Assembly (NCBI RefSeq): GCF_002970935.1
Contig: NZ_CP027194.1
Coordinates: 1,240,001-1,304,000, forward strand
Length of the DNA: 64,000 nt
Source: Lactobacillus sp. CBA3606
Lineage (GTDB): Bacteria > Bacillota > Bacilli > Lactobacillales > Lactobacillaceae
Direction: 5' to 3'
Shown here: positions 2,389-19,427 of the stretch, one piece after another
Numbering within the stretch: position 1 is the stretch's first letter
How the letters are laid out: each line of letters opens with the position of its first letter
Notes under the pieces: generated by a model
Database searches by the model: none
What the model was told of the DNA's origin: nothing
Seen by the model: only the letters and a program-made list of their open reading frames with translations
Made by a program: the position numbers and the translations under genes

Positions 2389-2433
2389 TTTTCTAAAATC
2401 CTTTCGTAAGTCCGGCACCCTTTTGCTTACGAT

Positions 2434-2610
2434 AAAAAAGCACAGTTACCCACTGTACTTCAAAATGAACCGATTAAAAGCGGCTGCCATTCATCAGTCA
2501 TTTATCTGGCCTTAGGGTACACTAAACAAAGCAGGCATTATCCTACTTTTTTCGTATAAACTAATTACCTGATTAAACGGCCGACATAATGACACCCCTT
2601 ATGATTTAGT
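2434..2610 (-). ncRNA. Candidate leader RNA or small RNA between pglZ and rsgA
   Basis: Minus strand. A good promoter, TTGACA (2640-2645), 17 bases, TAATTT (2617-2622), is followed by about 170 nt ending in a hairpin AAGTACAGT/ACTGTGCTT plus T-tract (2434-2460) just before rsgA. Near the 5' end a ribosome binding site AAGGGG precedes a four-codon reading frame (ATG at about 2590) that could be a minimal leader peptide. Either an independent small RNA or an attenuated leader of rsgA. The family is not recognised. Confidence 0.4.
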
Positions 2611-2616
2611 TCTTAA

Positions 2617-2645
2617 AAATTAACATGAATTTTAAAGCTTGTCAA
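2617..2645 (-). promoter_or_regulatory. Promoter for the leader RNA / rsgA
   Basis: TTGACA and TAATTT separated by exactly 17 bases on the minus strand, downstream of the pglZ stop codon. It reads toward rsgA. Confidence 0.5.
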
Positions 2646-2692
2646 TTGTCGTTTTAGCCAACTAACACGGACTAATTACTAATTACTGATTT

Positions 2693-5221
2693 TTAAATAT
2701 CATCAGGATTCACAAGATCCATAGTATATTGCAACTTACTTATAGAATGATCTGTTAAATTTTCAATCACTAAATAATAAACTGAATTACGATTATAAAC
2801 CTGATCAATTAACGTACTGCGAACAGTTTGAATTCGTTCACCAATTGCCTTTTTTTCGCTGTTAGCGTTAACCACTAATTGACCTGAAATTTGGTGATCC
2901 TGATCATCCACAAAATATAACTTATAACTAGTTGGAACGACAGTGGCGCTAATTGGTTCAGGCTGCATAATACTTAAGGGTACTTCTAATGACGTTATAC
3001 GCCGTTTAGTATTCACTAACTGTAACTCCGCCATTTGTGCATTAGATTTGTCACTACTTGTTCGAATTTCCAACAATGGTACCAGCATTTCTTGTAATGA
3101 AGACCCTCCATGGACATAATTATCTCCACCGTTGGCCCGAAATACATTCGCCGTTGTTGGATAATAAACATAACGTTCATCTTCATTATTTAGCACTGTA
3201 GCTAGTGATTGCCGATTAATACCAGGTTCTTTAACCTCACGCTTTGTAATTAAATAGCGTGGCGCTTTCCAATCGGCATCATCAGTAGGTAATTCGATCT
3301 TATCTACTGCCTTTAACTTCTCATCCCGATATAAATAGCCATGATCAGCTGTGATGTAAAGATGGGCAATACTAGCACTCCGCAAACGATTTACAAACCC
3401 ACGCAATTCATTAATAGCTTCATTAGCGGCAGCAAAGGTTTCGTCTTCAGTTCCCTGATTCTCTGCAGTTGTATCAATTTGATTATGATAAATATAAATA
3501 ACATCCTGACCAGCAAATGCCGTTCGTAATTCATCTCTAGTCTTACTCTTCAACTCTTTGAATCGGTAAGCTACACTACGTGGATTAGCTTGCTGTAAAA
3601 TCAACTGTCGTTTTTTTACATTATCAGCTTCCATACCGTCAACAGCAACACGCCGTGTATTAGTCTGCAATGCCAACTGCCTATGTGGTAATAGTGCTGA
3701 CATCCCCATATAAGTTACTGATGGTAAACCCGTCACCAAATAATGCATGTTTAACTCATTGATTTGATCATCTAACGAAAATTGATTTTGTAACTCTTTA
3801 GCAACTTCAAATCTTAAAGAATCCGAAATGATAACCACAATACGATTATTTTCCATCCCAACATATTGTTTATAAAAATTACGTTGCAAGACTTTGGGTG
3901 CAAGTTCTTGATAGTTAAAGTTTCGATTCCACGTGACCGCGTATGTTGACAGATAATCCACATACCAGGCCTCCACTAAATTCTTTACAGGCTGAAAGTC
4001 CTCCGGAAAACCAGCCTGTTGGTATTCATAAACAAAATGGCGGTAATCCGTATCTACCAAATAACCTGCTTCTAAGTAATCATTAATTAAACTACTCATA
4101 TTGTCAGCTGGAGAAGTCCCTACCATTTTTTTTAGCCACCACGCATTACACATCATTTGGTATAAATGATTAAAGTAAGGCGTTTGTCCATAATGTGTCG
4201 TTTCTCGCTGCTTAGTTAACTGATCAATTTCAACGCCATTAACAGTCACATCACTAATATCTAATTTCAGTTGCGTCTGAATCCACAGCAGTATTCGTTT
4301 ATCAAATTGCTTAAAAACATCTGCTCTTGCAATATCATCAATTTCTAACTGCCTAAATAGCTGTTTTTGATCAATAACTTGCCAGACAGCCGCTGCCACT
4401 TGTGCAAAGCTATCTTGATTATCTACTTTTTCACTAGCACTAAATTGTTGCATAAAGGTTTGTACATTAGCAATTTTTCGATCCAGATTCCATTGTTGAA
4501 CTTTAGCTGGGACTTTTAAGTCCATCTGTCTGAAAGCCATCGTGACGTACAATGCCGTACTCAAATCCAACACTTGAGTTTCGTTGGGATCACTTTCAAA
4601 ATTAAATTGTTGATGCACCTTGTCCCAAAATTCAGATAAAACGCCATATTTTTTAAATTCATTTAGGTATTTATTATTTACTAAATCGGCTTTTAAAATT
4701 GCCTTTAATACACCAAAAAAATCCACTAACGGTTGGTCTAATCGTGTAATCGTCGCCATAATGGCTACAGCAGGTTGACTATGGTAACTATCAATATCAA
4801 ATTTAGCAAATCGTGCTCGTCGAACTTTATTAGCAAAGAAGGTCTTATGATCTTTTAAAAATCGATGTAAATTAGTCGGTAAGCCTAATTCTTGACGCAA
4901 AATTTCTTGAGCATCTGCTTTGAACGTTACCGAATACAACACCATATCACGTAAATGATTTTCTTCTATCGGTGGCTGCGGCTGTGGAGAATAAACTAAG
5001 AACTTCTCACTTTGATCTGCATTTAAAAGTCGTAGTTTAGTCTCTAATTGGTGCCCTGACATTAATTCAATAACGATTGCAACATCTGCCAGTGCTGTCG
5101 TTAATTCTGAAATACTATCTTTAAATCCGCCGTCATCATCATACCAAAAAACAATTTGATGCCCGTCAGAAAAATCGTTTTTTAATGTTGTAACTACTTG
5201 TTTAATGTCCATATCAGCCAT
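2693..5221 (-). CDS. pglZ: BREX type 1 phosphatase-like protein PglZ
   Basis: PglZ belongs to the alkaline phosphatase superfamily and is a core, essential part of BREX phage defence, acting with the PglX methyltransferase and BrxC. The metal-binding motifs are present: VVIISDSLR at about residue 467 and TADHGYLYR at about 626. Length (842 residues) fits the family. I prefer the ATG at 5221 because AGAGG lies eight bases upstream; the in-frame ATG at 5242 has no such site. It lies on the same strand as brxABC-pglX but is separated from them by an oppositely oriented recombinase and silent pglX cassette and by a bidirectional terminator at 8625-8660, so it probably needs its own promoter. Confidence 0.93.
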   Translation of the reverse strand: MADMDIKQVVTTLKNDFSDGHQIVFWYDDDGGFKDSISELTTALADVAIVIELMSGHQLETKLRLLNADQSEKFLVYSPQPQPPIEENHLRDMVLYSVTFKADAQEILRQELGLPTNLHRFLKDHKTFFANKVRRARFAKFDIDSYHSQPAVAIMATITRLDQPLVDFFGVLKAILKADLVNNKYLNEFKKYGVLSEFWDKVHQQFNFESDPNETQVLDLSTALYVTMAFRQMDLKVPAKVQQWNLDRKIANVQTFMQQFSASEKVDNQDSFAQVAAAVWQVIDQKQLFRQLEIDDIARADVFKQFDKRILLWIQTQLKLDISDVTVNGVEIDQLTKQRETTHYGQTPYFNHLYQMMCNAWWLKKMVGTSPADNMSSLINDYLEAGYLVDTDYRHFVYEYQQAGFPEDFQPVKNLVEAWYVDYLSTYAVTWNRNFNYQELAPKVLQRNFYKQYVGMENNRIVVIISDSLRFEVAKELQNQFSLDDQINELNMHYLVTGLPSVTYMGMSALLPHRQLALQTNTRRVAVDGMEADNVKKRQLILQQANPRSVAYRFKELKSKTRDELRTAFAGQDVIYIYHNQIDTTAENQGTEDETFAAANEAINELRGFVNRLRSASIAHLYITADHGYLYRDEKLKAVDKIELPTDDADWKAPRYLITKREVKEPGINRQSLATVLNNEDERYVYYPTTANVFRANGGDNYVHGGSSLQEMLVPLLEIRTSSDKSNAQMAELQLVNTKRRITSLEVPLSIMQPEPISATVVPTSYKLYFVDDQDHQISGQLVVNANSEKKAIGERIQTVRSTLIDQVYNRNSVYYLVIENLTDHSISKLQYTMDLVNPDDI

Positions 5222-5254
5222 TAAAAATACCTCTTTTCCCATGAATCCTTACGT

Positions 5255-5299: not shown

Positions 5300-5437
5300 A
5301 TTATTGTTCACTCCAAACTATCATGATGGCGTTATTCAGCAATTAATCACGACTATTCCAGTAGCTGATTTTGATGTTGCGCAAGGCGGGCAAGTTGAAA
5401 TTATTGGTTGGTTGTATCAGTACTATAATACGGAACC
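5300..5437 (+). repeat. pglX inverted repeat block 1, silent copy
   Basis: 138 bp matching the reverse complement of 11499-11636 in pglX without an obvious mismatch. It encodes a segment beginning FTPNYHDGVIQQL. Homology ends sharply on both sides. Confidence 0.92.
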
Positions 5438-6674
5438 TAAGGATTTAGCTTTCAAAAAGAAAAAATACGCTAAAACTGATATTCCAGCTGTAACACAGTT
5501 ATTTACCCCAGATTGGATTGTAAAATATATGGTTCAAAATTCACTGGGCAGATATTGGATAGATGTCTTAAAATCTAAAGGCGATACTCGAAATGAACAT
5601 GCGATTGCAAACGCCTATGGTTGGCAATACTATATGCCAGCCGCGGATCAGTCTGCGGCGAGCACAATCAAAATCAATTCTGAACAAAATGACCTGAGCA
5701 ACGTAGAAATAGAAGACATAACCTTGATTGATGCTGCAACTGGATCAGGTCATATTCTGGTGTATGCATTTGATGTGTTTATGCAGTTTTATGAAAATGA
5801 GGGGTTTTCGAAACGAGAAGCAGCTCAATTAATTATTAAAAAAAATATTTTTGGCTTTGATATTGACACACGTGCGTTTCAGCTAACTTATTTTTCACTA
5901 GTCATGAAGGCCCGGGAGTTTGATCGTCGTTTCTTAAATAGTGATGTTCAACCTAAGGTCTTCGATATTCCAGAAACAGCAGATCTTTCAAGTGCTGATT
6001 TTCATGAACTGATTAAAAATTCCATTGAAAAAAAGGAACTTGATGAATTATTAGCACCATTTCAATATGGTAATAATTACGGTTCATTAATCCATTTTAA
6101 GTCTCAACCAAATTGGAAAATTTTGGATAGGATTGCAACTGAGCAAGTTGGTGATACTCAACTATCGTTTGATAGCATTAACTTAGAATATAACCAAGCA
6201 AAATTATCAAGGGTTATCAAAATTGCTAAATTACTCAATCAGGAATTCACAGTTGGTGTAATGAATCCCCCCTATATGGGGTCTAGCAAAATGAACTTGA
6301 TTTTAAAAAAATACGTTGAATCTAACTTTCCCGATAGCAAATCCGATTTATTCGCAGCTTTTATGGAACGACTGAGAATGTTTGTCTCTCCTCAAGGATA
6401 TTATTCAATGATTACACAACACGCTTGGATGTTTTTATCCAGCTATGAAAAATTAAGAAAATCGCTACGTCATGATACGTTCATTAATATGGCTCATTTA
6501 GGAACACGTGCTTTTGAAGAGATTGGTGGTGAAGTTGTTCAATCCACTACTTTTGTTCTTAAAAAACAAGAAAACATCAATTATGTTGGTACTTACGAAC
6601 GCTTAGTTGATTTTGATTCTCAATCAAAAAAGGAAACTGCCTATTTAGAAGCAGTTAAAGATAATGGCGTAAAT

Positions 6675-7021
6675 TATCTTTATCGAACTAATCAAGCGAA
6701 CTTTAGTAAGATTCCTGGGAATCCGATTGCTTACTGGGCAAGTGACAATTTAATTCATGATTTTGAAATAGGTACGCCAATGGATGATCTGGTAGATGCG
6801 CGACAGGGATTAGCAACAGCGGATAATAAACGTTTTTTACGTATGTGGTATGAAGTTGCTAATCAGCGTATCAGTTTCCACTCTAAATCCATCGATGAAT
6901 CGATTCAGTCAAACAAAAAATGGTTTCCATGCAATAAAGGAGGCGCCTATCGAAAATGGTATGGTAATTATGACTATGTGGTGAATTGGGAAAACGATGG
7001 TTATGAAATTAGAAATTTCAA
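6675..7021 (+). repeat. pglX inverted repeat block 2, silent copy
   Basis: 347 bp matching the reverse complement of 9996-10342. Nearly identical except for a short divergent patch (about 6784-6823) which encodes DDLVDARQGLATA in place of NLVNPKVGLQTG. Confidence 0.92.
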
Positions 7022-7285
7022 CTGGCCTAATGGCAAACAGAGATCAGTAATACGCAATCCAAGTTATTACTTCCGTGAAGCGATAACTTGGTCAGATATT
7101 ACTAGTGGTACTTTAGTATGAGATATAGAGAATTAGGAAGTATTTCGGACCATAAGGGAATGTCGGCATTTACGGTAGATCACAAGATGTTAATTTATAT
7201 TTTATCATTAATCAACACACTATTGGAAATTATATTTTAATTGCTAAATCCTACAATTTCACTAGAGTTGGCGATTTAATAGCAT

Positions 7286-7433
7286 TTCCGGTTATCATAA
7301 ATAATGATGTCGAAATTCGTAGTCAAACATTATCTAGATTGTCGATTACCACATCAAAAATGGATTGGGATTCATTTGAAACATCTTGGGATTTCACTCG
7401 TCATCCACTCTCAGCGCACATCGCTGATGATAA
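7286..7433 (+). repeat. pglX inverted repeat block 3, silent copy
   Basis: 148 bp matching the reverse complement of 9579-9726 with a handful of substitutions. Homology stops exactly after GATGATAA. Confidence 0.9.
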
Positions 7434-7443
7434 CCTATCAATA

Positions 7444-7493
7444 TGGTATTATTTATTGGTATTGACCAATTCACGTGCCAAAAATGTGCCAAT
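7444..7493 (+). promoter_or_regulatory. Recombinase promoter and candidate Int binding sites
   Basis: TGGTATTAT (7444-7452) is an extended -10 element. It is followed by an inverted repeat ATTGGT-ATTG-ACCAAT (7455-7470) and by GTGCCAAAAATGTGCCAAT (7475-7493), which contains two direct GTGCCAA half-sites. The last motif recurs inverted at the end of the recombinase gene. Placement between promoter and start suggests autoregulation or a recombination site. Confidence 0.45.
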
Positions 7494-7517
7494 ATTTCAA
7501 TCTAGGGGGCTCAAATA

Positions 7518-8606
7518 ATGGTTAGTTATCAAAAACGAGGCAATGTTTGGCAATATGAAATTTCATATAAAGACAACGATGGCAAGTACAAAAAGCTTAG
7601 GAAGTCCGGTTTCACGCTAAAATCAGACGCAATTCTAGCTGCTAGCCAGATTCAATCTGAACACCCAAATCTCAAAACTGCCAAATCTGGTAGTGAAACT
7701 CTAGTTAATTACTATGAAAGGTGGATTAAGACGTATAAGTTTAATGCCGTATCACCCATCACTTACAATAAATATCAGAACACTGCTAAACATGCACATC
7801 ATCTTTTCGGTAATTTGAAACTAAAAGATCTAACTAAACTTATTTATCAAGAAAGTTTAAATACATTCGCTGAAACTCATGCTCGCAGAACAGTGTCTTG
7901 CTTGCACAAACAGTTACGTGCTTGTATTCTTGAAGCCTTAGACGAACGAATCATAACAGTTGACCCTACTAGAAAAGCAGTGGTTACTGGTCACACGCTT
8001 CCTAAAACTGCCAGAACACTGAATTACAATGATTGGTCCACTTTGCTTAGCCATCTTAATACCGATAATATTGCAGAATTAACAATCTATCTCGCCGCCG
8101 TAACTGGCATGCGCTACGCAGAAATCGTTGGGTTAACACCAGCTGATATCAATCTAATAATGGGTACCATTAATATTGACAAAACATGGGATTATAAATA
8201 TAAAACTGGTTTTATGAAAACAAAAACTAGTGCGTCTATTCGAAAAATAGCTATTGATCAAAATACAATTGTAAAGCTACATCATTTCATGTTAGTACAT
8301 GATTTATCACCAGAACGACCTTTATTCATGAATAGTAAAGGTCATATTCTAGTAAGTGCTGAAATTAACACCATCTTAACTAATAAATTAGCGCTTCTTA
8401 ACATACCTAGAATTACGTTCCACGGTCTACGACACACTCACGCATCAATTCTGCTCTATAAGGGTGTAAGTGTTCTTTCAGTTTCTAGAAGACTTGGACA
8501 CAGTAACATCACAACTACTCAATCAACCTATTTGCATATCATTAAAGAATTGGAATCTCAAGATAACAATAAGATTATATCCATTTTAAGTGACGCATTT
8601 AAATAA
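7518..8606 (+). CDS. Phage-type tyrosine recombinase, probable PglX inversion recombinase
   Basis: Site-specific recombinase of 362 residues. The N-terminal 45 residues resemble the AP2-like DNA-binding domain of phage integrases, residues 60-150 form the SAM-like core-binding domain, and the catalytic domain shows all active-site residues: Arg199 in TGMRYAEIVGL, a Lys near 235, His302 and Arg305 in HGLRHTHAS, His328 in LGHSN and nucleophile Tyr338. The ribosome binding site AGGGGG lies eight bases before ATG 7518. It sits between the active and silent pglX copies, convergent with pglX. Recombinases in this position in lactobacillar BREX loci are associated with pglX inversion. An inverted 19-bp repeat flanks the gene. 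That it acts on the pglX blocks is inferred. Confidence 0.92.
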   Translation: MVSYQKRGNVWQYEISYKDNDGKYKKLRKSGFTLKSDAILAASQIQSEHPNLKTAKSGSETLVNYYERWIKTYKFNAVSPITYNKYQNTAKHAHHLFGNLKLKDLTKLIYQESLNTFAETHARRTVSCLHKQLRACILEALDERIITVDPTRKAVVTGHTLPKTARTLNYNDWSTLLSHLNTDNIAELTIYLAAVTGMRYAEIVGLTPADINLIMGTINIDKTWDYKYKTGFMKTKTSASIRKIAIDQNTIVKLHHFMLVHDLSPERPLFMNSKGHILVSAEINTILTNKLALLNIPRITFHGLRHTHASILLYKGVSVLSVSRRLGHSNITTTQSTYLHIIKELESQDNNKIISILSDAFK

Positions 8607-8624
8607 TTGGCACTTCTTTGGCAC
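8606..8624 (-). repeat. Inverted copy of the 19-bp repeat flanking the recombinase
   Basis: The reverse complement, GTGCCAAAGAAGTGCCAAT, matches 7475-7493 at 17 of 19 positions. It begins at the last base of the recombinase stop codon. Confidence 0.7.
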
Positions 8625-8660
8625 AAAAAGGGATCCTCTCACTTGAGAAGATCCCTTTTA
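8625..8660. terminator. Bidirectional terminator between the recombinase and pglX
   Basis: Long hairpin with outer arms AAAAGGGATC / GATCCCTTTT and inner arms TCTCA / TGAGA. It gives a T-tract in both directions and serves the convergent int and pglX genes. Confidence 0.85.
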
Positions 8661-8662
8661 AG

Positions 8663-11600
8663 CTAAATCTTAGATAATACTTTTTCACCGTCCTGAAGCT
8701 TGCTGTAGTTGACTGACACTCCGTCATCTAAATCAAGGCTAATTTGTTCATTAGCAAGATGCTGAATGATTGGATCATAGCTTTTCAATTCATTAATTTG
8801 TTGATTGACATGCTTAATGTCACGTTCTAATTGTTTTTTACGTTTAGCCATTGATTCATCGGCACTTAATTGTTGTAATTGAGACAATCTGGTTTCATAT
8901 TTACCTTGCAATGGATGTAAATAGTCCGTTCTAATCATCGCCAGCTCAGTATTGTCATACCGATGTAAATACATCAGTGCTTTGAAGCCATTTTGACGAC
9001 CACTAGAAAATTCCCAATAAATTGGCTTTTTTTGATAAACTTTTTTATGATCTTTGAAGAAATCTTCGACAAAATAACGTCTAATAGCTGCTTCAGAATT
9101 TTCAGCCTTTTTACCAACAATTCTGGCAATATAGTCCAAATTAGCTTGTAAAGTATCCATGCCAAACACAACTTCTAAGAATTGTTCTAGCCGATTAATA
9201 ATGTCTCGATCATCATTGAAATAACGTTCATCATTCAACATCACTAAATTATCTTGATTTGGCACAAATTTTTGATAATTATCACTATTCCACTTACCAC
9301 CAGCAAGGACTAACCCTTCAACATCTAACGAATAACGTCCAAACACGACACCTACAAAATATGACAGAAACGACTTAATATCCCGTACCTCATCTGCTAG
9401 TCGAACTGATACATCTTTATCCGCTACATCAGGTGTTAACTCGTCATTAAGTCCATATAAATCAATGAAAATTCGGTTTAGTTCTTCCTCATTAGCTTTA
9501 AGTTGATCAAATCGCTGTTGCGCCTCAACTTTCCATAACCCAAATGCATTTTCTAACTTTCCGCCAATTTCTTTTTGCTTATCATCAGCGATGTGTGCTG
9601 AGAGTGGATGACGAGTAAAATCCCAAGATGTTTCAAACGAATCCCAATCCATTTTTGATGTGGAAATCGACAACCTAGATAATATTTGACTACGAATTTC
9701 GACATCATTATTTATGATAACTGGAATATTATTAAAATCGCCGACCTGAGAATTAATGGTTGGATTTAGAGTTAGTATTATTTGGTTAGCAACTTTTGTA
9801 TTTAAAGCTCCTAAAATATAAATTAGCATATTATGATTTGTCGCAAATGCTTCATTACCAGCCGTTTCATGAATTGATCCTATCTCTCTATATCGAACAT
9901 TGAATTTTCCAGAGGTGATTTTAGGCCAAGTTATCGCTTCACGGAAGTAATAATTTGTGTTCTGTGGTCGTGATTTTAATTGTCCGCGATAATTTTTGAA
10001 ATTTCTAATTTCATAACCATCGTTTTCCCAATTCACCACATAATCATAATTACCATACCATTTTCGATAGGCGCCTCCTTTATTGCATGGAAACCATTTT
10101 TTGTTTGACTGAATCGATTCATCGATGGATTTAGAGTGGAAACTGATACGCTGATTATCAACTTCATACCACATACGTAAAAAACGTTTATTATCACCAG
10201 TTTGCAAGCCAACCTTGGGATTCACTAGATTATCCATTGGCGTACCTATTTCAAAATCATGAATTAAATTATCACTTGCCCAGTAAGCAATCGGGCTCCC
10301 GGGAATCTTACTAAAGTTCGCTTGATTAGTTCGATAAAGATAGCTGCTGTCAGGATTTTGAATTGCTTCTAAAACCTTATCCCGCTGGACATCCATTCCG
10401 CCTTTAAAGCTAGAAAGTTTAATATAAGTACCTTCCTCATTATTCGGCACATTTTTTAGAATAAAGGTGTTAATTGGAACAGTCGCTTCTTCAAAAGCGG
10501 AATACTCCATCTGAATCAAACTCGAAATTTCCTTTTGTTCAACAATATATTTTCTGAGCTTTTCGTAAGTCTTGATAAACATCCAGACAAAAGGCGTCAT
10601 ATAAGCCGAATAGCCACCATGCTGAACCATATTAATGTTGTTGTAGATGAAAACAGAAAACAAGTCGCCGGAATAGTCTTTGAAATTTTGTTTAATATAT
10701 TTTTTGAGTTCGGGATCAAATTTATTTAAATATGGTGGATTAGTTACTGCAACAGCATATTTTTCGCTCATGACTTGTGCAATTTTAATGATCCGCAAGA
10801 CAAGCTCTTTTGACTGTTGAATACCAAAAACATCCAAATCTTCAGTTGGTACTGAATGCACTGCCTGGTTTAAGTCATTCCAATTATACTGTTGTTGTAG
10901 CTGAATAATTGAGCCCAGTTCGCGAGCATTACTAAATAACTCAACAATTTCATGAATAGCAACGCGGTGTGTTTCATCCAAAGCGTCAAAAAATTCTGCC
11001 GTCACGGTATTAGAATCTTCAAAAACAAAGATATTAGGATCGAAATCTTCATCACTCAATGCGCGTCGATTATATTGTCGTGCTTTCATCATTACCGCAA
11101 AGTAAGCTAGTTGATAGGCACGCTTATCAATCTCCAAGCCAAATAAATTATGTTTCAAAATTGATTTGGCGGCATCACGTGCACTATAGCCTTCTTCCAA
11201 ATAAATACGCATAAAGACTTCGAATGCATAGATTAAAACATGACCAGACCCCATGGCATTATCAATGAATTGAATGTTTTCTAATGTCTCATTATCTGAG
11301 ATAGAAGTTATTTTACTAGGCAATAGAAAATTGAGCTTAGTTGCAAGCTTGCTTTCAGGGTGCCGTTCTAACCAATATCGGCCTAATGAATTATCCACCA
11401 TGTAGCGAACTACCCAATCGGTGGTAAATAATTGAGTTGCTGCTGGAATTTCATTTTTAGTTACAGCACCACCAGTAATGTTGACTGCATAATTATGTGG
11501 TTCCGTATTATAGTACTGATACAACCAACCAATGATTTCAACTTGCCCGCCTTGTGCAACATCAAAATCAGCCACTGGAATAGTCGTGATTAATTGCTGA

Positions 11601-12217
11601 ATAACGCCATCATGATAGTTTGGAGTGAACAATAATTCAGCATAATCGTTAGTTTTTTCGAATAAATGTGGCAGATTTTTATATAATGCATTGGCTTGTT
11701 TGATGAAAAGCATCCGATATAGGCGATCCATATCAGTTGTTAGCTCAGTTTCTTGTGCAACTTTAATCAAGCCCAACTCTTCATCAGTAAAATGTCCGAG
11801 ATAAGGTTCCAGTACAATTGGATCAATCATAATATCAGGTTCATGCCGACCTTGACTACTCGATAATACGCGTGTTCGACTCGGAAGATAATCATTGACC
11901 TCCATAAAGCGAATCGCAATTAAACGATTAAACCAGGTGTACGCAATTTCCTCTACCAAATCATTAAAAGCAGTTTTTAAATCACTATTTGTCGCCCGTT
12001 GTAACAATTCAGTAACTAATCGCTGTCGTTTTCCAATATCAGAACCAGTAATTGGATTACGATCATCAACATAGTATTCAATCTCTGAGGTGGAAGTTGC
12101 TAGCTTACTCGCAATTTCCTCCTCTGTAATACCTAGCATTGCTGCCTTTAGTTTAGTGTCTGCAATTAACTTTCGTCGCGCATTAATCGCAAAATTTTTG
12201 ATAGCTGTTTTGTCCAT
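8663..12217 (-). CDS. pglX: BREX type 1 adenine-specific DNA methyltransferase PglX (active copy)
   Basis: Class I N6-adenine methyltransferase that marks self DNA and gives BREX its sequence specificity. Full length for the family (1184-1185 residues). The SAM-binding motif is FIDNAMGSGH at about residues 315-325 and the catalytic NPPY at about 494. The N-terminus DKTAIKNFAINARRKL is typical. Two ATGs are adjacent; 12217 has the better spacing to AAAGGA. Residues about 195-241, 625-740 and 831-880 are encoded by three repeat blocks shared in inverted orientation with the silent cassette at 5300-7433, so the stretches between them can be exchanged while the N-terminus and last 300 residues stay constant. 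It is fourth in the brxABC-pglX operon. Confidence 0.95.
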   Translation of the reverse strand: MDKTAIKNFAINARRKLIADTKLKAAMLGITEEEIASKLATSTSEIEYYVDDRNPITGSDIGKRQRLVTELLQRATNSDLKTAFNDLVEEIAYTWFNRLIAIRFMEVNDYLPSRTRVLSSSQGRHEPDIMIDPIVLEPYLGHFTDEELGLIKVAQETELTTDMDRLYRMLFIKQANALYKNLPHLFEKTNDYAELLFTPNYHDGVIQQLITTIPVADFDVAQGGQVEIIGWLYQYYNTEPHNYAVNITGGAVTKNEIPAATQLFTTDWVVRYMVDNSLGRYWLERHPESKLATKLNFLLPSKITSISDNETLENIQFIDNAMGSGHVLIYAFEVFMRIYLEEGYSARDAAKSILKHNLFGLEIDKRAYQLAYFAVMMKARQYNRRALSDEDFDPNIFVFEDSNTVTAEFFDALDETHRVAIHEIVELFSNARELGSIIQLQQQYNWNDLNQAVHSVPTEDLDVFGIQQSKELVLRIIKIAQVMSEKYAVAVTNPPYLNKFDPELKKYIKQNFKDYSGDLFSVFIYNNINMVQHGGYSAYMTPFVWMFIKTYEKLRKYIVEQKEISSLIQMEYSAFEEATVPINTFILKNVPNNEEGTYIKLSSFKGGMDVQRDKVLEAIQNPDSSYLYRTNQANFSKIPGSPIAYWASDNLIHDFEIGTPMDNLVNPKVGLQTGDNKRFLRMWYEVDNQRISFHSKSIDESIQSNKKWFPCNKGGAYRKWYGNYDYVVNWENDGYEIRNFKNYRGQLKSRPQNTNYYFREAITWPKITSGKFNVRYREIGSIHETAGNEAFATNHNMLIYILGALNTKVANQIILTLNPTINSQVGDFNNIPVIINNDVEIRSQILSRLSISTSKMDWDSFETSWDFTRHPLSAHIADDKQKEIGGKLENAFGLWKVEAQQRFDQLKANEEELNRIFIDLYGLNDELTPDVADKDVSVRLADEVRDIKSFLSYFVGVVFGRYSLDVEGLVLAGGKWNSDNYQKFVPNQDNLVMLNDERYFNDDRDIINRLEQFLEVVFGMDTLQANLDYIARIVGKKAENSEAAIRRYFVEDFFKDHKKVYQKKPIYWEFSSGRQNGFKALMYLHRYDNTELAMIRTDYLHPLQGKYETRLSQLQQLSADESMAKRKKQLERDIKHVNQQINELKSYDPIIQHLANEQISLDLDDGVSVNYSKLQDGEKVLSKI
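9579..9726 (-). repeat. pglX inverted repeat block 3, active copy
   Basis: Reverse complement of 7286-7433 with a few substitutions. Marks the boundary between the exchangeable part and the constant C-terminal part of PglX. Confidence 0.9.
9996..10342 (-). repeat. pglX inverted repeat block 2, active copy
   Basis: Reverse complement of 6675-7021, 347 bp, with one clustered divergent patch near 10194-10235. Confidence 0.92.
11499..11636 (-). repeat. pglX inverted repeat block 1, active copy
   Basis: Reverse complement of 5300-5437, 138 bp. Lies upstream of the SAM-binding motif. Confidence 0.92.
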
Positions 12218-12249
12218 CATCGATTCCTTTCATCATTTGAATTGAATGC

Positions 12250-15200
12250 TTATAAATTCAATTTAATCTGATCTACCTCAGCCAACTGAGCAACTAATGC
12301 AGCCCGTAATTGTGCCAATTGAGTGTCAATATCTTTATCACTAGTTAGTTGCCAAGTTCTTGAAACTGGCAAACTACTTAAACTAATATGCTTAACCATC
12401 GGTATATTTGCTTTGGAACTATTGCCCGCAGTTGGCGTGGTTACATTGGTCTTAATCTTATTGATCTTTGCTTTTTCCTGGTCATTACTATCAGAAGTTG
12501 CCTTTTCATTAGCCTGATTCTTAGCTGCTAATCGAGCGGCTTGTTGCTCATTTTCAGCGATAATTTGATCCGCCTTCGTTAGGAACCGATCTTTACGAAC
12601 ACCTGCTTTGGATTTTATAATAACCAACTCATCTAGGTTAGCAGCTACTTTGGCCTCAGCAATAAAGTGTTCAAAATCATGATTAATCTCAGCTTCAAGC
12701 GCTGTTGGTACTGCCTTTGCTTGAATATATGTTAATGTTGCCTGCCACTCATCATTCACAACTTGTTCAACATCCGTTTCGATCTTATCGAACTCATTAT
12801 TGTAAACTTCATTAAAGGCTTCATTGTATCGTTTTAAATCATTGAGATTTCCTTGTGGTTTGTTAGAATCAACAATCGCCTTTATTTTGTGATAACTGTC
12901 AGGAACTTCATTACCGCTAATAAATGAACGTGACTTCTCATAAATATCGACTTTAGAAAGGGCATCATCCCAAATATGTTTTTGATCAGCACTATTATAA
13001 AAATCCTCTAGGCCATCATCATACATATCATCATGCCAATCCAACAAGTCATTCTTCTTAGCGCTAATTAATGCATAAAATGCATCAGTATCCTGTCGAC
13101 TTAATAGTTGTTTCAGTAAAGCTTGTCCATTTTCTAAGATATTTCGTCCTGGATAACGATTAGATAGACCTAGTTGCCTAGTCAAAAGTTGATTTGCATT
13201 GTCAATCGTATGCCGTAACTCTTGAACTAGTGTGTCATCCTCATCATTATCAAAAAAGTTTTTATTGAAAACTTCCCGCGCAACTTCTTTTAAATCCCGT
13301 TTTTGTGTGTCAGAAACTGCCACTCTTGGAACCAATTGCAACTTATCAGTATATTGCTTCATCGTAAAGAAATCGGCAATCTTGTTACTGGTTTTGTCTG
13401 AAGACAGATTAATTTGTTCGCCGTTTACATAAGCTTTGATTTGAGCACCAACAAACAGTTTCGCAATTATCCATTTAACATCCCAATCATGATAGCCATA
13501 CGGTGCCGCAATAAACCGCTCTAAAAGAGCCTTATACGAGATTTTGCTAGGGCTACGATAGTCCCGATTAATTCGATCTAAAACTGCTTGAATAGCTTGC
13601 TTATTTTCATCTGTATCAACTAATTCAAAATCTGATTTAAATAATTTAACAATATCAGTTTCGGATTTAACGACGTCAATAAAACTCAAATTACGATAGA
13701 CTTCATCAATTAAGTGAACTTGTGCCATACCTAACCGCTTTTCAAAACTTTTACTGTTGGCCTCTAACCGCTCATCACCAACGTAAATATCAGCATCTTC
13801 AAGAGCTGCTTCCAATTCACTTTGTGATTTTTTATTTAGCGTCTGCCGCTCTAATCTTTTTACATCAATTATCTTTTCAGAGCGAGCATCATCTTTACGA
13901 TTACTCGTGTCACGTAAAAATTTACCGATTTGTAAGGCTTGTCTCACATCATCAATGTACTGTCCGTCTGCTGGCATATCAATAATGATTTGCGGATCAG
14001 TTGGTGATAATGCAATTCTGCGTAATTCCATTTCAACATGGTTAGTATCACTTTCTGGTGTATTAATCTTAATACTCATCGCATTATTCGCCACACCATG
14101 TGGATGACCATCTACAAATTGATTAAACTTAAATGAATATTGACGATCTAGCTTAGGGTATACAAAACGACCATTTATTTGATTGTTCGAAAATAAATAT
14201 TCACCAATTTCTCGAGAAATTTCATTACCATCAACACTTTGTTTGTTGATCTGTCGACTAACATCCTGTTCAGCATCCGTTAAAAACTCAAAGCCATTAG
14301 TGGTCTTCTCAACAACCTTCTGACTAATTAAAACGGTCATCGCATCTTTAACTTGTTTTTCCAACTTAATGCGATCGGTATCAATTGAATCAATCATCAA
14401 TGTTGTCACATTATTCAAAGTTGTTTTGAAATTAGCAAGATACTTTACCATGAATAAGGTCTCTAACACTTGAACTGCAAATGGATGATCCTGATGTTCT
14501 GGATTAATCACATCATTATCCAGTGCTCGCTTAATTACAATCATATGTGTATGATCTAAGAATTGATCTAAGCCTTGAAAAAAGAGACTGAATGGGACTA
14601 ACGATCGAACATCTTGCTGCTCTAAACGCTGCGCTGATTCTTGGAATACTGCCAACATCGACCGCTCCCCATTAGCTAAATGCTTCCCATCTGAGCCATT
14701 TTTTCGAATTGCCGTTAAGGTATCCTGTAATAAATTAAACTGATAAGGTACAAATGGATAAACATCAGCGAAATTTTGCGGACTTCGATAGTGATCTCGA
14801 TCAATATCTGCTTCAAAGGTGATCAGATTATTAATAGCATGTTGATCATTGTCATAAATATTAGCTAAACTCTGTTCACTTTCAACTGTTTTAGTTAATA
14901 ATCGCTTGTTAATGACTTCGTCAACATTAGCTGATGACATCGCAATCCGGGTGTTAAACCGCCCCTGAATTTTAGAAAAATCTTGTCCATTAATATTATC
15001 AGTTACCTGATCAATGGCTTGTTGACTGGTAACAATCACCCATGCCTTACCATGTGTATACGTTCCCAGATCTTCAACTACACTCTGTAAATTCAGCATC
15101 CGTTGTTGACTATTACCAATATATTGGCCAACTTCATCAACTAAAAAGACTAAGTGATAATTTGGATCTTGCTTAACAATGTAATCATTAACTCGTTCTG

Positions 15201-15933
15201 CAAAATTCTCAACACTGATTGGATAATTAGTTTTAAGCTGTTCAATAAAGCCAGTCGCATTTTCTTCAGTCATATAACCAATTGCAACTAAAGCGTCTTT
15301 AATTGTCCCCTTTAGAAAAGCAAACCCATTTCGAGCATCAAGCCATGTCCGATGTTGCTTATCCAATTCCTGAAATTTTTCTTGAAATTCTGTGTATTGA
15401 TCGTCTTGAATCAGATCCCGCTCCATGTCAGCAATCCAAAAATCAACCCCAATCAACCCCAATTGTTCATTGAACACTTGCAAGAAGACATTTAAAATGG
15501 CATCTTTTTGTGATTTATTACCATTTTTAGCTTTTGAATCAATATTAAACAGAATAGTTTCGTTATGTATCGAAGCTGCCGCTTGTAAATTTGTAATCGT
15601 ATTAGGATTACTCAATTTTTGATCATCAAGAAAATAATCTATTGCTGGTTTACCGGCAACTTCACGATTTTCTAATAAATAAGCTAAAATTTTTAAAAAA
15701 TGTGATTTCCCAGAACCAAAGAATCCGGAAATCCAAACACCCATCTTAGTTGTATCTTGATTGATGCTATCCGTATAGGCGCTAAAAAATTCTTGAAAAT
15801 GTTGTTGTAACTCCTTGGTAACCACATACTCTTCCAATTCTTGCTTAATATTAGCGTCCTGTTCATCCCCAATGGTAATAACACCCTTAATATTACGATC
15901 AATTGGCTTAGCAAATATCTCTTTTATTTTCAA
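12250..15933 (-). CDS. brxC: BREX type 1 P-loop ATPase BrxC
   Basis: Large AAA+-like ATPase of the BREX system (about 1227 residues, normal for BrxC). The Walker A motif GFFGSGKS is at about residues 70-77. The N-terminus KIKEIFAKPIDRNIKGVI matches the family when translation starts at the TTG at 15933, which has AGGAGA six bases before it. The upstream in-frame ATG at 15948 would encode that ribosome binding site, so I reject it. A Lys/Glu/Ala-rich stretch at about 1110-1170 looks like a flexible or coiled-coil linker. Thirty bases separate it from pglX. Confidence 0.95.
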   Translation of the reverse strand: MKIKEIFAKPIDRNIKGVITIGDEQDANIKQELEEYVVTKELQQHFQEFFSAYTDSINQDTTKMGVWISGFFGSGKSHFLKILAYLLENREVAGKPAIDYFLDDQKLSNPNTITNLQAAASIHNETILFNIDSKAKNGNKSQKDAILNVFLQVFNEQLGLIGVDFWIADMERDLIQDDQYTEFQEKFQELDKQHRTWLDARNGFAFLKGTIKDALVAIGYMTEENATGFIEQLKTNYPISVENFAERVNDYIVKQDPNYHLVFLVDEVGQYIGNSQQRMLNLQSVVEDLGTYTHGKAWVIVTSQQAIDQVTDNINGQDFSKIQGRFNTRIAMSSANVDEVINKRLLTKTVESEQSLANIYDNDQHAINNLITFEADIDRDHYRSPQNFADVYPFVPYQFNLLQDTLTAIRKNGSDGKHLANGERSMLAVFQESAQRLEQQDVRSLVPFSLFFQGLDQFLDHTHMIVIKRALDNDVINPEHQDHPFAVQVLETLFMVKYLANFKTTLNNVTTLMIDSIDTDRIKLEKQVKDAMTVLISQKVVEKTTNGFEFLTDAEQDVSRQINKQSVDGNEISREIGEYLFSNNQINGRFVYPKLDRQYSFKFNQFVDGHPHGVANNAMSIKINTPESDTNHVEMELRRIALSPTDPQIIIDMPADGQYIDDVRQALQIGKFLRDTSNRKDDARSEKIIDVKRLERQTLNKKSQSELEAALEDADIYVGDERLEANSKSFEKRLGMAQVHLIDEVYRNLSFIDVVKSETDIVKLFKSDFELVDTDENKQAIQAVLDRINRDYRSPSKISYKALLERFIAAPYGYHDWDVKWIIAKLFVGAQIKAYVNGEQINLSSDKTSNKIADFFTMKQYTDKLQLVPRVAVSDTQKRDLKEVAREVFNKNFFDNDEDDTLVQELRHTIDNANQLLTRQLGLSNRYPGRNILENGQALLKQLLSRQDTDAFYALISAKKNDLLDWHDDMYDDGLEDFYNSADQKHIWDDALSKVDIYEKSRSFISGNEVPDSYHKIKAIVDSNKPQGNLNDLKRYNEAFNEVYNNEFDKIETDVEQVVNDEWQATLTYIQAKAVPTALEAEINHDFEHFIAEAKVAANLDELVIIKSKAGVRKDRFLTKADQIIAENEQQAARLAAKNQANEKATSDSNDQEKAKINKIKTNVTTPTAGNSSKANIPMVKHISLSSLPVSRTWQLTSDKDIDTQLAQLRAALVAQLAEVDQIKLNL

Positions 15934-15965
15934 CTTATTTCTCCTCATATTCTGCGTCCATATTC

Positions 15966-16547
15966 CTAATTAATCTGAAAGGCACGATAATAATTATCTT
16001 CTTTCACTTCACCGAACATGCTCAAACTTAAATTATCGTATTTGCCGGGATAGAAAAGTACTACCGGTACCTGAGTAATAATTTGATGCATCGTATTCAA
16101 AATCTTATGCGCCCGAATTAATGGATAGACCTCTCCAATTCCCGTTACAAAAACAACTATGTTATCCGTGGAAACCAATTTTTCTTCCATATATGTCACA
16201 AACATATTTTCAGAATCAGTCATACCTAAAGTATTATTTAGCTGTTCTACTAAGTAGTCGAGTCCTTCATCCGCTTCCATCGCAATAACATCATCTTTAA
16301 TTCCCATTTGAGTTAAAAGATCCCACATAATATGGTAAACATTAAATTCAATAATATCGATGCCTACTGTGGCCTGATTCAATTGATGCTTCATATTGTC
16401 AATCTCATCTCGTACTAAAAGCTTATCCTGAGGGGTATATCCTAAAATATAATAGGATACTTCATTTGAAAGACCACGACTGTGCTGAAAATCCTGGCTA
16501 GTGATTTTTTCGCGTAAACTTTTTAACTTCATTCTCGTATCTGTCAT
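15966..16547 (-). CDS. brxB: BREX type 1 protein BrxB (DUF1788)
   Basis: 193-residue BREX core protein whose molecular role is not settled. The C-terminal half (TGIGEVYPLIRAHKILN ... VVLFYPGKYDNLSLSMF) is the recognisable DUF1788 signature. The ATG at 16547 follows the brxA stop in TAAAATG, with GGGGAG inside the end of brxA, so the two genes are probably translationally coupled. Order brxA-brxB-brxC is canonical. Confidence 0.93.
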   Translation of the reverse strand: MTDTRMKLKSLREKITSQDFQHSRGLSNEVSYYILGYTPQDKLLVRDEIDNMKHQLNQATVGIDIIEFNVYHIMWDLLTQMGIKDDVIAMEADEGLDYLVEQLNNTLGMTDSENMFVTYMEEKLVSTDNIVVFVTGIGEVYPLIRAHKILNTMHQIITQVPVVLFYPGKYDNLSLSMFGEVKEDNYYRAFQIN

Positions 16548-16548
16548 T

Positions 16549-17142
16549 TTATCTCCCCAATAGTACAGCTAGTATCTGATGTTCATCTTTATTTCGTAAC
16601 ATGTCCTCTAAATCAAGATCTAATAAGGGACGACTTACTTGGTCAAAACTCCCTTGATTTTTCATCAGCCCTGCTTCACGGACAAATGTTTTAAAGACAC
16701 CTATTAAACGCGTAATTGTTTCATCAGTCCAACTCGCAATTTGTTGATTTTCAGCTTGTTTGCGACTAAAAAAAGCTTCAATTTCATAATCATGTAACTC
16801 GGTATCTCCGAGTACTAATTCATCACGATAAACCTCATACATAAACTCTTCAAAAAGTTGATTTGATTTCATAACAGTTATCAAATCAATTAACCGTTGA
16901 TTTGCGATATCAAGGCGTGGAAAAAGACTCATATAGTCTTGATCCAGGCTATCGATTCGATGTGTTATTATTTTAAGCATGTCTTGAATACGAGCAACTG
17001 TACTCTGTTTAAAGATATTGTCTTTAATGGCTCGGCTATTAATTTCGCCTTGAGTTAACCCCTTATTTAACAATTCAATATACTGCTGAAACTCATTAAA
17101 CCAAAAAGAATGTGAAACTATCGCAGCACTATATTTTATCAT
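16549..17142 (-). CDS. brxA: BREX type 1 protein BrxA (DUF1819)
   Basis: First gene of the BREX operon, 197 residues, the usual length for BrxA, a helical DNA-binding protein in characterised systems. The N-terminus MIKYSAAIVSHSFWFNEF is typical. A GTG at 17148 is in frame, but GGAAG is only three bases before it, while ATG 17142 sits nine bases after it, so I use 17142. The gene follows an extended -10 promoter at 17216-17224 and marks the right edge of the AT-rich island. Confidence 0.92.
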   Translation of the reverse strand: MIKYSAAIVSHSFWFNEFQQYIELLNKGLTQGEINSRAIKDNIFKQSTVARIQDMLKIITHRIDSLDQDYMSLFPRLDIANQRLIDLITVMKSNQLFEEFMYEVYRDELVLGDTELHDYEIEAFFSRKQAENQQIASWTDETITRLIGVFKTFVREAGLMKNQGSFDQVSRPLLDLDLEDMLRNKDEHQILAVLLGR

Positions 17143-17190
17143 TTGCACTCACTTCCTAATTTCAGCGTAAATAATCACGACATATTGCCC

Positions 17191-18368: not shown

Positions 18369-19427
18369 TTAAGCATGCAATATGTTCTTAGCGGCGTTAA
18401 TATCCCGATCATGGTTAATGCCACATTTTGGACACGTCCATTGTCGGATAGCTAGCCCATGCTTACCATCATCGTAACCACAGTCGGCACAAATTTGGCT
18501 AGTTTTTCTAGGATTCACAGTGACCAGCTGCTTACCATACCAGGCACATTTATATTCAAGTTGAGTGCGCAATTCACGCCAAGCTTGCTTGGCAATTGCA
18601 CGGGCGAGCTGATGTAAATAGTTATTTCGCTGGTTAGCGATTTTCTCGTTATATTTGGCAACCATGAGACGCGCCTTACGATAATTACTGAAGTCATTCA
18701 GTTCACATGGTTCTAAGACTTGATTGTGTTTATCCCACGAAACTTCTTTTTGAGCTTGTAGTCTTCGACGGGCTAACCGTTTTTCCCAATAGTGTTTCTT
18801 TTGTGATAAGGCCTTATCAAAACGAATAGTCGGATATTTGACACCATCACTGGTAATCATTAAATCCGCTACACCCATATCAATTCCCACCGCTTGCTTA
18901 GTTTTAGGCAGTTCTTGCACATCATTATCAACTAACACAATGGCGTAGTATTTGCCGGTAGCAGATAGCCGGATTGTGACATTCTTGATTTTACCGGTGA
19001 GTTGTCGGCCAGATTTAAAGGCAAGACGGCCTAATTTGGGAATTTTAAGCTGATGTTGATCGATTTGACTAATATTATGATTGACTGAATTAGACTGATA
19101 ACTCTGTTTTGGGAATTTTCGTGATTTGAACTTCGGAAAACCAACATGCTCCTTAAATAATTTCTGAAAAGCATGATGCAAATCACGGCTAACGTGTAAA
19201 AGACTGGTTGATTCTGCTTGCTTAAGAAACGGATATTCTTGTTTAAGACACTTAATCAGATAATTCATGCCAAATTCATTGACATAAGATCCACCATTGT
19301 TATGACGCTCAATCTGCATGCTTAATAACTGATTCCAGACAAAACGACAACAGCCAAAATTGTTAATGATTTTGGCTTGTTGGTCAATTTGGGGATAGAT
19401 CCTTGTTTTTATTGCCCGCAGTGTCAT
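18369..19427 (-). CDS. tnpB: TnpB-like RNA-guided nuclease with RuvC-II segment deleted
   Basis: 352 residues, somewhat short for TnpB. The N-terminal region and wedge resemble lactobacillar TnpB; RuvC-I Asp is present in VGIDMGVADLMITSDG; the zinc finger CADCG ... CPKCG and RuvC-III Asp in HDRDINAAKNIL are present. The segment that normally carries the RuvC-II glutamate (xxIEDLNVKGMLKNHKL in relatives) is missing: NNYLHQL runs straight into ARAIAKQAW. The loss is in frame and about 28 codons long. The protein should therefore lack nuclease activity, whether as a dying IS gene or as a DNA-binding-only derivative. Ribosome binding site AGAGG is nine bases before ATG. Confidence 0.88.
   Translation of the reverse strand: MTLRAIKTRIYPQIDQQAKIINNFGCCRFVWNQLLSMQIERHNNGGSYVNEFGMNYLIKCLKQEYPFLKQAESTSLLHVSRDLHHAFQKLFKEHVGFPKFKSRKFPKQSYQSNSVNHNISQIDQHQLKIPKLGRLAFKSGRQLTGKIKNVTIRLSATGKYYAIVLVDNDVQELPKTKQAVGIDMGVADLMITSDGVKYPTIRFDKALSQKKHYWEKRLARRRLQAQKEVSWDKHNQVLEPCELNDFSNYRKARLMVAKYNEKIANQRNNYLHQLARAIAKQAWRELRTQLEYKCAWYGKQLVTVNPRKTSQICADCGYDDGKHGLAIRQWTCPKCGINHDRDINAAKNILHA

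Follow-up and report, generated by a model that had tools for sequence, protein, structure and literature searches.

A probable three-site shuffling switch in the BREX-1 methyltransferase gene of Lactobacillus sp. CBA3606 and related Lactobacillaceae

Introduction

Phase-variable pglX, switched by inversion, was reportedly described by Goldfarb et al. in 2015 in the BREX-1 system of Lacticaseibacillus rhamnosus. A later account of L. rhamnosus cites Goldfarb 2015 for phase variation and reports an integrase flanked by one complete and one partial PglX; its available sections do not speak of inversion (PMC7513527). In LRHMDP2/3, the PglX pieces count 1198 and 743 aa and are described as analogous to those of strain GG (PMC7513527). 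PMC11842806 also refers to previous reports in which pglX was duplicated or phase-variable, and pglX phase variation has been explained by a homopolymeric tract (PMC6326788) or by disrupted coding sequences (PMC9122589). The BREX cluster of Lacticaseibacillus paracasei Zhang contains two methyltransferase genes, only one of which is needed for 6mA at the motif ACRCAG; the L. paracasei strains IMAU30101 and IMAU10043 show no motif, although their BREX is called identical to Zhang's (PMC10164179). Outside BREX, the tyrosine recombinase PsrA of the pneumococcal cod locus inverts hsdS at the repeat pairs IR1-IR3, of which IR2 and IR3 rely on IR1-like sequences (PMC7096588).

Here, we describe a pglX locus with a linked recombinase gene in Lactobacillus sp. 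CBA3606. The window, i.e., the whole stretch of DNA that was analysed, spans 64,000 nt (contig NZ_CP027194.1, positions 1,240,001 to 1,304,000 of the forward strand).

Results

Organization of the BREX-1 locus

The minus strand of the window encodes a BREX-1 operon in the order brxA, brxB, brxC and pglX, followed by a 3.4-kb gap and then by pglZ. The gap is occupied by a tyrosine recombinase gene and a partial pglX, both on the plus strand. The features are as follows:

2693..5242, minus strand: pglZ (TIGR02687, 415.7 bits)
5300..7433, plus strand: presumably silent partial pglX cassette, PglX aa ~196-881, both gene ends missing, open to 7118
7518..8606, plus strand: tyrosine recombinase, 362 aa (PF14657 arm-binding, PF14659 SAM-like and PF00589 catalytic, Phage_integrase)
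8663..12220, minus strand: pglX (brxX), active full-length copy, 1185 aa (NF033452 BREX_1_MTaseX, 1298.8 bits, cut-off 500)
8663..9572, minus strand: constant C-terminal part of pglX, single copy
12250..15948, minus strand: brxC (NF033441, 1084.9 bits)
15966..16547, minus strand: brxB (PF08747)
16549..17148, minus strand: brxA (PF08849)

The assignment to BREX type 1 is based on a PglX/BrxX matching the type 1 model and on the clustering of BrxA, BrxB, BrxC and PglZ with it. Systems of this type are expected to methylate a non-palindromic 6-bp site and to exclude phages. The active PglX also matches the solved PglX/BrxX chains 8c45, 8zek and 9ewz. Promoter and terminator scans revealed no excess over shuffles. 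An ORF near the BREX island (18369-19427) presumably encodes an IS200/IS605-type TnpB.

Comparison of the sequence with itself returned three inverted pairs, 5300-5437/11499-11636 (138 bp, 97.8% identity), 6675-7021/9996-10342 (347 bp, 92.8%) and 7286-7433/9579-9726 (148 bp, 95.3%), exactly the lengths of the three reverse-oriented blocks announced in a preliminary description of the locus. That description was also right in placing a complete recombinase between the copies, in stating that the cassette lacks both ends of the gene and in contrasting the SAM-binding motif of the active copy, DNAMGSGH, with DAATGSGH in the cassette. A chance origin of the repeats is excluded because pglX carries repeats at these three positions (aa 195-241, 627-648 and 857-881) in most of the 35 other loci described below. 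The locus combines inverted expressed and silent copies, a linked and apparently complete recombinase and alternative arrangements in relatives, as expected of an invertible gene. The cassette is probably silent, since the N- and C-terminal ends are missing. Two frameshifts, located by eye near 7114 and 7221, interrupt its part between sites B and C, with a stop at 7119-7121; they may stem from genuine decay or from errors in sequencing.

Sites A, B and C

The repeat blocks themselves are not likely to be the recombination sites. Since blocks within a coding gene do not reveal where a recombinase acts, we scanned 23 of the 24 active pglX genes (L059, which has an in-frame stop, was left out) for synonymous conservation, that is, for codon agreement between species beyond what amino acid and codon usage explain. 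The 29 best 7-codon windows all fell within aa 191-205, 624-639 or 872-888, with a synonymous excess reaching 0.48 at the peaks against a scan mean of 0.05 (sd 0.07). These peaks correspond to sites of ~21 bp, named A, B and C, each at the outer end of its repeat block, with the conserved DNA lying around TTATTGTTCACTCC (A), TATCGAACTAACCAAGCGAAC (B) and ATCGCTGA..ATAA (C). The three sites exhibit similar arms (YATYG-N11-C) and differing 7-bp central cores. Their copies in the window are:

5302..5322, plus strand: site A, cassette copy, TATTG-TTCACTCCAAA-CTATC
11614..11634, minus strand: site A, active copy
6681..6701, plus strand: site B, cassette copy, TATCG-AACTAATCAAG-CGAAC
10316..10336, minus strand: site B, active copy
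7419..7439, plus strand: site C, cassette copy, CATCG-CTGATGATAAC-CTATC
9573..9593, minus strand: site C, active copy, CATCG-CTGATGATAAG-CAAAA

A fourth block candidate, aa 755-766, lay outside the 40 best scan windows and was rejected.

In most loci, the A and C cores mark the limits of identity between the two copies of a genome, the outer arms being different; L063 is an exception at A, where homology runs beyond the site to aa 154. Within a genome, the two copies shared their 7-bp core in every scored pair (22/22 at A, 18/18 at B and 17/17 at C), and the cores vary between genomes (permutation: 0, 33 and 0 of 20000 for A, B and C, respectively). This scoring omitted loci with more than 8 mismatches in the cassette copy over the matching window, i.e., 1, 5 and 6 of 23 at A, B and C. 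By eye, the core also matches in four of the five loci omitted at B (the other being L041, misplaced by an inserted base) and in five of the six omitted at C (all except L062); the locus omitted at A is L062 as well, the cassette of which has no site A. When trained on B and C without A, a model of the arms ranked the cassette copy of A 4th to 50th of ~39,800 positions in each of the nine loci tested out of 23. In four of these nine, the active copy of A showed weak arms (rank 239-376).

The blocks of ~108 nt inward of A are 96.8% identical within genomes and 66.4% between them. Because the blocks are homogenised within genomes, core identity is not independent of block identity. Such homogenisation is not explained by conservative site-specific exchange alone and suggests an added homologous process.

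Distribution of the layout among Lactobacillaceae

The recombinase was searched for in 397 genomes of the family, 142 of which had a match at E<=1e-60. We followed 35 loci (L036-L070), comprising 31 of the strongest matches, three matches that belong to a more distant group, and another position in G260; more than 100 genomes with weaker matches lie outside this set, except G179 and G115, in which pglX stands beside the recombinase too. In all 35 loci the recombinase gene lies between two pglX pieces. A search of genome contigs for further recombinase relatives retrieved one weak relative (L035), without pglX. The cassette covers aa ~196-880 in most loci and the recognition domain alone (from aa ~630) in four (L038, L058, L059 and L062). 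Site A was recognised in 23 of 25 cassettes, and 21 of these 23 contain no stop before site C; the cassette of L041 carries a frameshift. The same order, with brxL, was found on all four named plasmids, two from Levilactobacillus brevis and two from Lactiplantibacillus plantarum:

L089-L092: plasmids of L. brevis TMW 1.2108 and TMW 1.2111 and of L. plantarum K25 and SRCM103426

A DUF262 gene accompanies brxL and the shuffling layout on these plasmids, and both L. plantarum plasmids are predicted to be conjugative (PLSDB).

As controls we used 11 genomes with one complete pglX and no recombinase match at E<=1e-60. Their pglX genes showed no peak at A, B or C (0.14, 0.21 and 0.16; mean 0.10, sd 0.09), and in four of them the LLFTPNY stretch at site A is encoded by other codons. 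The site-B 21-mer (<=1 mismatch) occurs in 31 of the 397 family genomes and in none of the 11 controls, the reversed pattern in none. G075, counted among the 31, has no recombinase match; the pglX there is a fragment lying close to the beginning of a contig.

Several loci deviate from the common layout. L067, L068 and L069 (G062, G122 and G140) have a more distant recombinase (45-47% identity) and a split layout in which pglX stops at aa ~873 and is followed by extra cassettes, the C-terminal domain lying apart, just before pglZ; in L068, it forms a separate ORF of 311 aa. These loci possibly encode a split PglX with a C-terminal part acting in trans. L047 and L070 are damaged BREX stretches with identical A-B segments at both ends of one contig of G260, perhaps a single locus doubled by untrimmed circular overlap. 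L085 (G198) and L086 (G179) contain a second pglX start, behind the first and in the same direction, cut by the contig end at aa 187 and aa 92, respectively, which is possibly an assembly break at the repeat.

The distribution of brxL

No match to the BrxL models TIGR02688 or PF13337 was found in the whole CBA3606 genome (99.99% complete), and no brxL adjoins pglZ (window 2418-2693). Because BrxL is found in 74-76% of such systems (PMC12839542), it is not a strict requirement of BREX type 1; the same source reports that BrxL is dispensable in Salmonella and that PglZ is a nuclease. Twelve of the 34 other recombinase-bearing genomes lack brxL, as do 13 of the 17 genomes of a second set that includes all recombinase-free controls. 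brxL-lacking BREX is common among the family genomes examined, and the lack of brxL is therefore not by itself a sign of a methylation-only system. We accordingly downgraded the equation of a missing brxL with methylation only, all 11 controls being without brxL too. In a BrxC tree of 44 rows, the brxL-lacking recombinase loci group with two brxL-bearing ones (L048 and L062). A BrxL replacement was sought beside pglZ in 13 brxL-lacking loci, which revealed no common new effector. The neighbour of pglZ is RsgA in the window (Pfam) and in L036; in other brxL-lacking loci we take the neighbours, named by eye, to be RarA, a BrnQ-like transporter, FNI and YmdB/MutS.

Rearranged loci

Eleven close pairs were compared for exchanges. 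Between L089 and L090, an L. brevis and an L. plantarum plasmid, the A-B segments are reciprocally exchanged (98.1% and 97.4% identity) within flanks of 99% identity; L089/L052 show the same exchange, and L042/L044 an A-B exchange at lower identity (78-81%). In L039/L043, the B-C segment that is silent in one locus is active in the other (94.5%), with A-B in place, and in L051/L052 the active A-C module of one locus corresponds to the silent one of its partner (96.9%). L052 and L054 differ by an inversion of the stretch between the C sites, so that pglX of L054 ends near aa 880 and its cassette carries the C-terminal domain. The active A-B of the window corresponds to the silent A-B of L036 (97.4%), and one breakpoint of this pair lies inside B-C near 9915, off any site. 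The close pairs L055/L056 (99.9%) and L089/L091 (100%) showed no exchange; neither did L090/L092 and L092/L052, whose B-C modules differ but have no match in the other copy. Because the compared genomes and plasmids belong to different species or strains, some exchanges could reflect transfer. Among the 27 readable loci, 25 were assembled with a complete pglX and two (L049 and L054) in a single-inverted state; this count, over the window and the 35 loci, omits L038, L047, L050, L053, L058 and L070 as broken or cut and L067-L069 for their split layout.

Modules and predicted states

The three sites delimit two modules in the active gene:

10337..11613, minus strand: module A-B, methyltransferase domain (motif I DNAMGSGH, NPPY)
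9594..10315, minus strand: module B-C, target-recognition domain

In Escherichia coli BrxX, the N-terminal domain covers residues 1-210, the methyltransferase domain 211-650 and the recognition domain 651-837, with a hinge at 638-675; bases 1-4 are read by residues of the recognition domain, and base 6 by a loop of the methyltransferase domain (587-601) (PMC11842806). Specificity positions of Salmonella PglX likewise lie mostly in the recognition domain, plus one methyltransferase loop (PMC11341690). In an alignment judged by eye, A falls near E. coli residues 182-190, B near 642-650 and C near 871-876. The catalytic domain and the base-6 loop therefore belong to module A-B, and the remainder of the recognition surface to B-C. 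A-B segments fall into two length classes, <=1309 bp and 1345 to 1399 bp (window, L036-L066), and the two copies are of different class in 21 of the 23 loci with both measured, as if both types were maintained.

We joined the window's own pieces in silico into all eight states. A full-length reading results in two, the arrangement as sequenced (1185 aa) and A+B (1212 aa), which combines the DAATGSGH methyltransferase module with an unchanged recognition domain. The other six stop at 774-935 aa, and every odd number of inversions gives a product without the C-terminal domain. The truncated PglX that the preliminary description expected from a single inversion is thereby borne out, and L049 and L054 were assembled in that form. 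Its expectation that two inversions restore full length with swapped segments holds with one correction for the window: such swaps are seen in L089/L090 (A-B), L039/L043 (B-C) and L051/L052 (A-C), but the B+C and A+C states of the window stay truncated. States B, A+C and B+C stop inside the silent B-C and, because this segment is frameshifted, A+B is the only one of the window's double inversions to restore full length.

Discussion

We propose that this locus is very probably a recombinase-driven shuffling switch in the BREX-1 methyltransferase gene, most likely acting at three ~21-bp sites. The proposal draws on the anatomy of the locus, the sites, whose presence depends on the recombinase gene, the within-genome identity of the cores and the breakpoints at A, B and C in relatives, all read from sequence comparison. 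The targets of the tyrosine recombinase would be A, near the end of the N-terminal domain, B, at the methyltransferase/recognition hinge, and C, which lies ~35 residues beyond the start of the C-terminal domain; the active pglX and, in inverted orientation, the cassette contain one copy of each. Tyrosine recombinases are known to require matching overlaps. Since the cores differ between sites, each site would recombine only with its own counterpart, and three inversions would yield eight states. An odd number of inversions would leave PglX without its C-terminal domain, a product expected to be off and probably inactive; an even number would bring this domain back with A-B, B-C or both exchanged. 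We infer that the linked recombinase catalyses the exchange, and inversion presumably occurs in growing cultures of this strain.

The main alternative is ordinary RecA-dependent homologous recombination or gene conversion at the blocks, the recombinase being a passenger or one of two routes. It would account for blocks of 70-350 bp homogenised within genomes well past the sites and for the window/L036 breakpoint inside B-C, and it has a precedent in pneumococcal spnIII, where, according to the title of the report, recombination is independent of all known pneumococcal site-specific recombinases (PMC6620402). Yet homology between the copies stops at the cores, the 21-bp sites are conserved across species together with the recombinase gene while being absent from the 11 controls, and the recombinase stays between the copies in 35/35 loci. 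We therefore consider RecA-dependent exchange unlikely, although the homogenised blocks speak for some homologous contribution beside the recombinase-driven switch that we favour.

A role of the cassette as a regulator or as a second, functional methyltransferase is highly improbable. The partner copy in L. paracasei Zhang is indeed named a second methyltransferase with a regulatory role, but its inactivation left 6mA in place (PMC10164179). The cassette of the window has neither N- nor C-terminal domain and is frameshifted, and in four of the 35 loci the cassette encodes the recognition domain only. A decaying duplicate or an assembly artefact, which the frameshifts in the window's silent B-C and in L041 might suggest, is scarcely credible for a layout repeated in many separate assemblies and on named plasmids, with cassettes that mostly lack a stop before site C.

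In the shuffling switch, module exchange would be predicted to change the methylated sequence. As BREX marks host DNA and targets phage DNA via one protein, a domain swap would change the self-mark and the target together. The three sites, placed at the domain limits of solved PglX structures, provide an explicit and testable rule for the possible swaps. More tentatively, the locus could be a combinatorial specificity generator: with A-B reading base 6 and B-C bases 1-4, separate exchanges at A, B and C would let a single silent cassette generate as many as four recognition sequences, four further states being off, and in the brxL-lacking lineage that includes the window the role may be mainly that of an epigenetic (phasevarion) switch rather than defence. 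We regard this joint reading as possible, somewhat short of probable. The layout is widespread in Lactobacillaceae, plasmids included, and may explain BREX-bearing strains without a methylation motif.

Phase-variable pglX has already been reported in L. rhamnosus. For the three-site shuffle, we found no description in the literature searched, which comprised titles and the beginnings of abstracts, the founding 2015 paper standing outside that search. The L. rhamnosus BREX-1 shares with the window a full pglX, a shorter pglX piece and an integrase in between. For three sites with separate cores, separate module exchange or an off state caused by a missing C-terminal domain, we found no account in the literature covered, to which the 2015 paper does not belong. 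L. paracasei Zhang, as far as its published description goes, resembles the window in having a BREX cluster with two methyltransferase genes, one of them dispensable for 6mA. The second gene is read as a regulator in the available text of PMC10164179, whereas we would read it as a silent shuffling partner, and an off arrangement would explain the L. paracasei strains that show no motif despite a BREX called identical to Zhang's. The nearest mechanistic parallel is pneumococcal PsrA, which also combines a tyrosine recombinase with three inverted repeat pairs and shuffles genes by inversion (PMC7096588). The cod locus, however, shuffles the specificity subunit of a Type I R-M system, whereas the window would shuffle a BREX methyltransferase made of one polypeptide, in which the catalytic domain would be exchanged too and an odd number of inversions would remove a constant domain.
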